DNA of 64,000 nt, taken from Erythrobasidium yunnanense (lineage: Eukaryota > Basidiomycota > Cystobasidiomycetes > Erythrobasidiales > Erythrobasidiaceae). The position numbers were made by a program, and so were the translations under genes. The DNA lies in assembly GCA_001600175.1 (NCBI GenBank), contig BCJC01000004.1:2228559-2292558 (forward strand), read 5' to 3'. Positions within the stretch are counted from its first letter, which is position 1; each line of letters opens with the position of its first letter. Positions 60,342 to 64,000 of the stretch are shown in pieces. Under the pieces are notes generated by a model. That model was not told the origin of the DNA and made no database searches. It was given only the letters and a program-made list of their open reading frames with translations.

Positions 60342-60527
60342 GATGCATACATAGGGGATGTTGTTGTGAAATCAATACAATGCAATGCTGTTGCAGACGT
60401 CGACCCACTCGCGGCCCTACTTTCCGACAGGACTGTCAGACACTCGGCGGATACGTCCGGCAAAGCCAGATTTCTCAGGTTTGCAAAAAGCCGACTCCTC
60501 TTCTGCCCACCCACTGTCACTACTACA

Positions 60528-62192
60528 ATGCTTGCACGCTCCTTCAGACTACGACCGCCATGCACATGCTCCTGTTCGACGTTTCGCTCGGCTTCGACGT
60601 CAAGCTCCACGAGCAAGCGCAACCCATATCGCGCAGAGATCAAGCTGCCAGCGCCTGAACCACGCAAAGTCATTATGAAGAAGATGAAGTTTGGGAGACT
60701 TGAAGAGGCAGTCGCAGAAGTACCGCCTGGAGCCGTCCCTGGATCAGGCTCTCACGTCAATCTTCGAGAAGCAACGCCTAGCGGAGGCAGGAACAATGCA
60801 AGGCTCTTTGCTACTACGGCGAGGGTGCAGTCGTCGCCATCCGACGAAGGCAGCGCGAAAAGCAGTGGCACGGCTATCGCAACTGCCTTGGTCGCTGCTG
60901 CAATAGGCGCCGCAAGCTATCTATACCAGTCTGGTGCTAAGGACAATAGCTTGCAAGAGGAGGCAAGGAGAAACGCCGTTTCGGATAATGTAAGGGCATA
61001 CCTCTTGCTAAGCTATTCGCGGCTGACGACGATGCAGCCATACAGTTCGGAAGACCTACGAAGACATCTATCTACATTGGCGACACCTCCTCCTGATGAT
61101 CCCTCACTCCCAATGTCGCAAAGAATGGAAGCATGGGTGAAGTCGCTGCAATCGCGTATAGTCGAAGCGCTGGAGGAGACGGAAGCTTCAGCATGTTATG
61201 CGACAACGTCAAAGGAGGCAAAGACGTTCTTGAGAGACACTTGGTTGCGGAAAGAAGGTGGAGAAGGTATCAGTTGTGTGCTGCAAGATGGGAGGATATT
61301 CGAGAAGGCTGGAGTCAATGTCAGCGTCGTTCATGGTACTCTACCACCTGCTGCTGTACGATCGATGACGGCAGATCATGAGGGGAAATTCAAGGTGGGT
61401 CTACTTCAGAATCAGCGGTCAATGCTGACAGAATGATAGGGCTGGTACGATGGCACCACATCACTTCCATTCAAGGCATTGGGTATCAGTTGTGTCATCC
61501 ATCCTCACAATCCCTCCGCGCCGACCGTCCATTTCAATTATCGATACTTCGAGGTTGAGGACCCTGCAAATCCAGGCGTTCCCAAAGCATGGTGGTTTGG
61601 CGGTGGTGCCGACCTGACGCCTTCGTATCTGTATGAAAGCGATGCAGAGCATTTCCATCAGACCCTAGCCGCTTCGAGCGGTGATCGATACCGGAAATAT
61701 AAGCAGTGGTGCGACAAGTACTTTTACATCAAGCATCGCGGCGAGACAAGAGGCGTTGGCGGTATCTTTTTCGACGATCTGGCGGATGATGCCGAAGAGA
61801 ACTTCGCTTTCGTTAAGCGGTGTGGGGAAAGCTTTTTGGGCAGCTACGTGCCCATTGTCAGGAGAAGACTGCATGCAGATTGGGATCAGCGGATGAAGCA
61901 GTGGCAGCAATTGCGGAGAGGTCGCTATGTGGAATTCAATCTGGTCTACGATCGCGGGACACAGTTTGGTCTTCGCACTCCTGGAGCGCGAATAGAGAGT
62001 ATTCTCATGTCTCTTCCCTTGAACGCGAGGTGGGAATATTATGCGAAGTTAGGAACGGAGGAAGGGAGTCGGGAGGCGGAGTTGTTGGAGGTGCTAAGTG
62101 GGTGCTTGGTTTTTCATCGAGTGCTTAGCTGACTTTCGGATGCAGAGAATCCAAGGTCATGGGTTGATGTTAACGAAGAAGTCAAGATCTGA
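60528..62192 (+). CDS. HEM13: Oxygen-dependent coproporphyrinogen III oxidase
   Basis: Converts coproporphyrinogen III to protoporphyrinogen IX in haem synthesis. ATG 60528 opens [20 protein letters not shown], an arginine/serine-rich leader, and about 115 residues later comes a hydrophobic segment ([20 protein letters not shown]), a bipartite pattern of mitochondrial intermembrane-space import. The catalytic part begins [20 protein letters not shown]. Motifs: [93 protein letters not shown] and [11 protein letters not shown]. Introns: one ending before GWYDGTT (about 61393-61440), one GTGGGTGC..ATGCAG before [14 protein letters not shown]. Stop 62190-62192. Last recognisable gene before the right end. 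Confidence 0.95.
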
Positions 62193-63950
62193 AAATGCGA
62201 TGCAGTATATAGTCCCTCATTCTATACCCTGTAGATCTCAGTCCCCTACTCAGTATCAGTGAAGTCATACAGTCAACGCACCTGCTTCGCGCTAACGACA
62301 ATCACTTGGACGAGTCGGCTTACCTTTCCTCGCGCGGCATTCGTCAGATGTGTTGCAAACCCACCGGGAGACTCGTTGGCTGCCAGACACTGAGTCTCGT
62401 GTCGCGGGCGTAGTCGACACTGAGTCTGTTGTCGCGGGCGTAGTCGTAAGTCACTTAGAAGTCGGTCAGAAGGCAAGACAGACTCGATTCGTAAACTGTC
62501 AAAAGCGTACGCTAAGCTCTCGCAATCTCGTCAAGCGCTCTGCTAACGGCACAGTCTCGATCTGGCTGACAGTTGACTTACAACAAAGGAGTTGAGATAC
62601 GCGTCTCAAGCTTCTGACGGCTTGATCTTTGATAGTAGATCATCTGCTGCTCTTCTCATCATGGCTGTACCCTCTCACATCTTCTCCAACGTACCTCACC
62701 TCAATTCCGAGGGCTTTCGCAAATGATCACCCGAAGATCAACAGCGCTGCAAGAATCAGTTTGCAGAGTGGGCTGCGCTCATTAAAACAGCTCTTCGTAA
62801 GCTGTGGAAATCTCGAAGCTGCAGAACAGCTCGCAGCGCAGTCGCCGGAGAAAAGTGAGGCCCAAGCCAAGCTCGAGGCTGAACGTCTGGAACGATTGGC
62901 AATATCGGACGATCCTTGTGCCGCTATGCGAATGCATATTGAGCGATGAGCTGTCCGAAGGAGCGCTCTTCGCTGATCTCGCTGGTAGGTTACGATCAGG
63001 ATGCACAACGAAGCCGGCGACTTCTGAGCAATGACATCGTCCGATGCAGCTTATGCCCAATGGAGGATCAAGGGACTTATGCAGTCGGATACGTTTGTGC
63101 CAGAGAAGGAGCGAAAAGGTGTTCGCGAGAGAAGGTGGGAAAACGTTAGTCGCTCTTCAGCTCTTCAGCGTTAGCATCGATCGTTCTGGCAGTACTATCT
63201 AAGATGCAGAAAATGCATCTGAACAATTTTGACTTGACGGTTTTGCATATGAAAAAGGCAAGGAATGGACTTCGGGGCCTTGTACCTTTGTCGCGCCGAA
63301 AGAAACTGACGATGTAATTTGATGAAGAGACTTTACTGCATCAAGATTACATCTATCAGTATACTTCATCGCTGCGACACAACCTCTGGGCAGCGTTCAC
63401 ATCAGAAATGCCTATCTCCCTCAATATCGATGCTACAGCCATGAAACCCGGATCGTTATGATGCGCAAGACTTCTGGATCATTTCTATGCTGCTCGTTTG
63501 CTATTAAGCCTTTTTACGGCCCGGTTACAAGGCGACCACTTTTCTCGAGCTTTCGAGGGGCCTACTACGGCTGCTACAGACGTCGCGCTACCAAGCGGCA
63601 CAACTTTCCTGGTAACTGAAGACGTCTTCAACTGGAGCGACTTCTCCTCTACTGGTAAAGCGTTGGTCGAAGTTTCCGCTGGCTACTGACGGCTTTTTTT
63701 ACGCCTTTCCCGCTGGCTGCTGACGCTGTCACTTCGTTCACACGCTAACAGACTCTCTTTGACGCTGTGCTGACGTTCTTTTGGCTGGAAGAGCGACTTG
63801 AGCAGGGACTTCAAGCAGACGGCTCCTTCTGTCTTGGACGGGCTGCACTAGTCAGACTGGCTTGTGAGCCAGCTTTCTGAGCTCCAACACTCCTTCTTGA
63901 CTGACTCTTGAGGCTTTCAGCTCAGCTAACTTAACTACCTTTGCTGTGCG
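62193..63950. other. Gene-poor right end (possible subtelomere)
   Basis: No convincing intact gene in 1.76 kb. 62661-63150 has broken coding-like sequence: ATG 62661 gives MAVPSHIFSNVPHLNSEGFR, a TGA, then SPEDQQRCKNQFAEWAALIK; other frames continue with LEAERLERLAISDDPCAAMR and LCECILSDELSEGALFADLA. These may be a relic of one gene. 63230-63690 shows nothing. 63690-63930 is rich in CTGACG / GCTGACG words. Confidence 0.4.
62386..62445 (+). repeat. 30-bp direct tandem duplication (two units)
   Basis: 62386-62415 and 62416-62445 match except for CGT versus GTT near position 12-14 of the unit. Each unit begins GACACTGAGTCT and ends GCGGGCGTAGTC. Confidence 0.8.
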
Positions 63951-64000
63951 AGGGGGGTTGACAGAGGGTTACAGAGGGTTTAGAGGGTTTACAGAGGGTT
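63951..64000 (+). repeat. Telomere-like G-rich repeats at the window end
   Basis: After a G6 run, four irregular units end the window: TTGACAGAGGG, TTACAGAGGG, TTTAGAGGG, TTTACAGAGGG, then TT. The G-rich strand points 5' to 3' toward the window end, as expected at a right chromosome end. The unit is not the common TTAGGG. It could also be an internal satellite if the chromosome continues. Confidence 0.6.

Follow-up and report, generated by a model that had tools for sequence, protein, structure and literature searches.

Basidiomycetes mainly possess TTAGGG telomeres; departures are found in Malassezia, where the telomere variants TTAGTG and TTAAGTG match mutations of the telomerase RNA template, as described in the accessible part of PMC12506658. 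In the accessible part of PMC4839565, the telomere of Schizosaccharomyces pombe is represented by the probe unit TTACAG and that of Yarrowia lipolytica by the 10-nt unit GGGTTAGTCA. Among the papers listed by searches of open-licence literature, which included the accessible part of the TeloBase paper (PMC10767889), none was seen to describe telomeres of the form TT(T)ACAGAGGG.

Here we describe the right end of contig C4 of the basidiomycete Erythrobasidium yunnanense, analysed as a window of 64,000 nucleotides (C4:2228559-2292558). With a probability of about 95%, this end is a telomere made of the 11-nt unit TTTACAGAGGG, interspersed to about one quarter with the 10-nt unit TTACAGAGGG, and most likely synthesized by a telomerase with a changed template of approximately CCCUCUGUAAA.

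The arrangement resembles the TTAGGG telomeres of Ustilago maydis in its terminal tandem repeat, in the outward direction of the G-rich strand and in the presence of TERT and POT1 domains in the genome, and the Erythrobasidium unit has retained GGGTT(T)A. In contrast to U. maydis, the unit is 11 or 10 nt long, contains an extra CAGA block and occurs in two lengths, and no TTAGGG tract was found. The telomere of S. pombe varies its G-run. TTACAG is contained in both Erythrobasidium units, and the array is heterogeneous, as in the available description of S. pombe; here, however, the G-run is fixed (three in 106 of 107 cases) and the T-run varies, which is not the S. pombe pattern. The shared TTACAG is likely a convergence. 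We know of no 11-nt form in Y. lipolytica. The available unit of this ascomycete is also a 10-nt fungal unit starting with GGGTTA, but the sequence that follows GGGTTA differs. Malassezia shares the basidiomycete departure from TTAGGG, matched there by template changes, whereas its units, in the available account, stay at 6-7 nt compared with 10-11 nt in E. yunnanense.

The terminal array and the last gene

The last part of the window contained the following features:

60366..62132, plus strand: coproporphyrinogen III oxidase in two adjoining frames (Pfam PF01218, E 3.8e-20 and 1.8e-97)
62133..63954, unstranded: gene-poor subtelomere, in which no stop-free stretch exceeds 124 codons
63190..63909, plus strand: diverged subtelomeric DNA common to other telomeric ends (seen when the final 2 kb were compared with the 20 contig ends by blastn)
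63955..64000, plus strand: terminal telomeric array of 46 bp, G-rich strand outward, Tandem Repeats Finder period 10-11

The original prediction had described G-rich terminal repeats with the G strand running outward, preceded by 1.8 kb of gene-poor DNA. Both statements were confirmed, the first by the array at 63955-64000, the second by the position of the last recognisable gene before it, the coproporphyrinogen III oxidase with its stop at 62132. The array units are preceded by GGGGGG at 63952-63957 and follow in the order TTGACAGAGGG (63958-63968), TTACAGAGGG (63969-63978), TTTAGAGGG (63979-63987) and TTTACAGAGGG (63988-63998), completed by TT; two of these four units are degenerate. Neither TTTACAGAGGG nor TTACAGAGGG nor TTTAGAGGG has another copy in the 64-kb window on either strand.

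Contig C4 comprises 2,292,558 bases and stops exactly at window position 64000, so the window end coincides with the contig end, and the assembly contains nothing, including unique genes, beyond it. That the window ends at a chromosome end with its telomere is near certain. Within the subtelomere, a 30-bp unit is repeated twice at 62386-62446 with 93% match. An Rfam search of the window yielded nothing at gathering scores. A pattern for the end of the 18S rRNA had no match; rRNA genes may be masked in the assembly or absent from it. In a PDB search, the coproporphyrinogen oxidase listed 9 distinct chains, which gave no hint of the species.

The repeat at other contig ends and its composition

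About 10 kb were fetched at each of the 20 ends of the 10 contigs, of which two ends were masked. The repeat was found in terminal position at 10 of the 20 ends, namely C1L, C1R, C2R, C3L, C3R, C4L, C4R, C5R, C7L and C9R, and thus at both ends of C1, C3 and C4. All ten arrays have the G-rich strand outward, and the recurrence on other scaffold ends that the original prediction had called for was thereby established. The share amounts to 10 of the 18 unmasked ends, or 10 of 16 when the odd contig C10 is also set aside. In the last 700 bases of the eight other unmasked ends (C2L, C6L, C6R, C7R, C8R, C9L, C10L and C10R) no array was present, which we read as incomplete assembly. Genome-wide, the exact 11-mer TTTACAGAGGG gave 82 matches (40 and 42 on the two strands) versus 7 for the reversed control.

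Two peculiarities of the contigs were noted along the way. The two ends of C10 (57,881 bp) are identical over 9,982 bases in inverted orientation; C10 may thus be a palindromic contig, a product of faulty assembly or a linear element whose long ends are inverted copies. The outer ends of C6 right and C9 left, both of which lack a telomere array, share about 8.56 kb at 99.98% identity and also match over about 225-230 bp in inverted orientation.

The ten arrays were composed of 103 units, 69 of them TTTACAGAGGG (11 nt), 24 TTACAGAGGG (10 nt, about one quarter) and 10 others. The original prediction of an irregular repeat of variable length overstated the irregularity: the arrays switch mainly between two units, and 93 of the 103 units belong to these canonical forms. 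TTTAGAGGG, which had been put forward as a form of the repeat, proved to be a single degenerate unit (1/103 at the ten ends). Of 107 G-runs, 106 measured 3 nt; leaving aside the initial run of every array, whose length the cutting rule sets to 3, the figure is 96 of 97. The T-run after the G-run was 3 in 79 and 2 in 28 of the 107 cases. Since the G-run is constant while the T-run is either 3 or 2, the alternation is not random noise. The sequence of unit types varies between the ends, as independent addition of units would lead one to expect.

In principle, the alternation of TTT and TT could stem from errors of sequencing or assembly in what is really a uniform 11-nt repeat, as the main units TTTACAGAGGG and TTACAGAGGG differ by a single T in a run. 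A homopolymer error should, however, strike both runs, and the G-run, of equal length, varied in 1 of 107 cases compared with 28 short T-runs, so the fixed G-run argues against such an error. Furthermore, both forms were present at eight of the ten ends, with only the long form at C4L and C9R (3 and 5 units), and the corresponding AAA and AA forms both occur in internal copies as well (e.g. C2:349126, C3:564797 and C2:2269456). We therefore consider an error very unlikely.

Subtelomeric DNA, array stops and telomere machinery

The last 2 kb of the window matched other telomeric ends as follows:

63540-63909: C5R, 72%
63386-63883: C1L, 67%
63563-63803: C1R, 69%
63190-63346: C2R, 71%
63190-63313: C1R, second piece, 71%

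End-against-end comparison revealed, among its 60 best matches, further pairs between C1L and C1R (976 bp, 71%), C1R and C2R (411 bp, 76%) and C2R and C3L (676 bp, 71%). Subtelomeric DNA is thus common to at least six of the ten repeat-bearing ends (C1L, C1R, C2R, C3L, C4R and C5R), while none was seen for C3R, C4L, C7L and C9R among the matches listed.

At eight of the ten ends the arrays measure 26-95 bp; the remaining two are 336 and 370 bp long. Six ends (C2R, C3L, C4L, C4R, C5R and C9R) stop exactly at GAGGGTT, after which the next base forks into T or A, the branch between the 11-nt and the 10-nt unit. These ends look like assembler stops at the repeat fork. The assembled arrays therefore probably do not show the true telomere lengths.

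The array could also be a terminal or subtelomeric satellite, with the true repeat, e.g. TTAGGG, located farther out and unassembled. The short arrays at eight of the ten ends and the six stops at the fork indicate that the true ends were probably not reached, and subtelomeric DNA common to several ends would also suit a satellite. Against it stand the shared outward orientation of the G-rich strand at ten ends and the lack of any other repeat beyond the array at any of them. A genome search for (TTAGGG)3 that tolerated two mismatches, and that may skip simple repeats, had 0 matches versus 7 for the reversed control, and the last 300-500 bases of the 18 unmasked ends contained no TTAGGG array. 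Plain TTAGGG at other chromosome ends, which would have spoken against the original prediction, was thus not seen in these bases, while 10 of the 20 ends carry TT(T)ACAGAGGG. Telomerase products typically consist of a T-run, an A and a G-run, with a precise GGG, and this is the form of the unit here. A satellite appears highly improbable on these grounds.

A telomerase reverse transcriptase is present in the genome, as recognized by its RNA-binding domain at C2:1326454-1326681 (PF12009, E 2.7e-16; 1.8e-17 on the exon), and C6:633174-633434 codes for a POT1 domain (PF02765, E 2.8e-9). Three frames beside the PF12009 exon had no Pfam match at 0.01; in a frame neighbouring this exon, the motif C-like polymerase sequence LIDDFLL was recognized by eye. 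Maintenance of the ends by recombination between subtelomeric repeats, with the array as a relic of past telomerase activity, would fit the diverged subtelomeric families common to the ends at about 67-76% identity, but is hardly credible given that the arrays are nearly pure (93/103 canonical), whereas decay would be expected without telomerase, and that the telomerase RNA-binding domain is still encoded.

Search for the telomerase RNA template

Template-like loci were sought genome-wide with four sequence patterns. The 17-mer CTGTAAACCCTCTGTAA, allowing two mismatches, had 99 matches versus 3 for the reversed control, so internal template-like sites exceed chance; 19 internal loci, counted by hand, are among these matches. 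The 10-mer GTAAACCCTC had at least 104 matches versus 38 in the control. Among the matches listed, 8 of 38 compared internal stretches contained a perfect match of at least 20 nt; this comparison leaves out three of the 19 loci of the 17-mer (C1:3181223, C2:3230290 and C4:568742), and two more template-like loci, obtained with a further pattern, were examined beyond the 38. Several loci are accompanied by decayed neighbouring copies (e.g. C1:1845979, C1:2218276 and C3:564797), and some internal copies lie, as judged by eye, in introns (Pfam genes: phosphoglucose isomerase, MFS transporter and signal peptide peptidase). Such loci are taken as short interstitial telomere copies. Many of the 19 internal loci are telomere-like copies of this kind, located in part within introns or beside genes as judged by eye; they may be scars left by repair or sites bound by a telomere-repeat factor.

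Three clean candidate templates emerged:

C2:2269454-2269474: CTCTGTAAACCCTCTGTAACC, 26 nt past the stop codon that closes a ubiquitin hydrolase frame, and before a COX6A gene
C1:2032809, minus strand: follows a small unnamed reading frame at a distance of about 200 nt
C5:1234845, minus strand: AA form only

Of these, only the C2 candidate combines the AAA and AA registers. Lying only 26 nt past a stop, however, it has little noncoding sequence upstream in which a boundary helix could form. In 18 stretches, the C5 candidate not among them, Rfam gave no telomerase RNA match and a single snoRNA line (E 4.2) below the gathering score.

Set in a 5-bp hairpin, the sequence AGAGTTGG occurs 817 nt downstream of where the C2 template begins. 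Of 2,000 stretches of 1,100 nt drawn at random from the window, 2.9% contained the AGAGTTGG 8-mer, 19.9% a 5-bp hairpin with a TTGG loop and 0 both; these frequencies were computed only after the hairpin had been seen. The predicted fold around AGAGTTGG (z -2.7 and -3.2) places the hairpin bases into another helix, and the C2 template region itself had a fold z of -0.02. Sliding fold z values averaged -0.43 for the C1, 0.11 for the C2 and -0.88 for the C5 candidate versus 0.05 for 60 control stretches. The C5 candidate, without AAA, was the most structured, with 5 of 22 pieces below -2 and a minimum of -4.1. In a toy pairing model that allowed perfect pairing only, the C1 candidate yielded no 10-mers, the C5 candidate only 10-mers or other units, and the C2 candidate, depending on the boundary, either at most 4% 10-mers or 10-mers exclusively; none of the three reproduced the 69:24 ratio of the units under this pairing rule.

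The P6.1 motif AAGAGTTGGGCTCTG, which lies downstream of the template in telomerase RNAs of the Ustilaginales type, had 35 genome matches with up to two mismatches versus 34 for the reversed control; when the lists were read by eye, no match was seen closer than 2 kb to any template-like locus. In Ustilago, the telomerase RNA locus is linked to an early-meiotic-induction gene. The only PF11326 match in the E. yunnanense genome is situated at C3:441509-441703, and the surrounding 3.8 kb contained no run of nine or more bases of the telomere repeat; a telomerase RNA linked to this gene as in Ustilago was thus dismissed. As a separate observation, five copies of the 18-bp palindrome GGCGCTGCGCGCAGCGCC, exact or nearly so, lie within C5:73200-75600 with a spacing of 84-148 bp (by eye), about 940-1370 nt after a template-like site.

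Proposed template and significance

The changed repeat in place of TTAGGG is an observation at ten contig ends; the diverged telomerase template proposed in the original prediction is its probable cause. In the telomerase reading, the template of the telomerase RNA would read approximately CCCUCUGUAAA plus an alignment stretch, and the RNA would carry CCCUCUGUAA(A). Telomerase would copy the array from this template, with the GGG part copied faithfully and the alternation of 11-nt and 10-nt units arising from realignment in or beside the T-run, which corresponds to an A-run in the template. The combination of a fixed GGG with switching between TTT and TT suggests realignment at this A-run.

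A wider scenario appears possible, though unlikely. In it, the lineage would have moved from TTAGGG to a two-unit 11/10-nt telomere, both registers being read from one template that has AAA in its 5' copy and AA in its 3' copy, for which C2:2269454-2269474 is a candidate. The 10-nt form would have converged on the TTACAG core of fission yeast, and the duplex- and single-strand-binding proteins would have changed as well.

What makes the E. yunnanense repeat valuable is that it forms a clean telomere of two units and that its probable switching point can be read from sequence alone. The fixed G-run and the switching T-run indicate the probable translocation site. With the repeat changed completely to 11/10 nt, the fungus offers a test case for template, boundary and telomere-binding proteins changing together.
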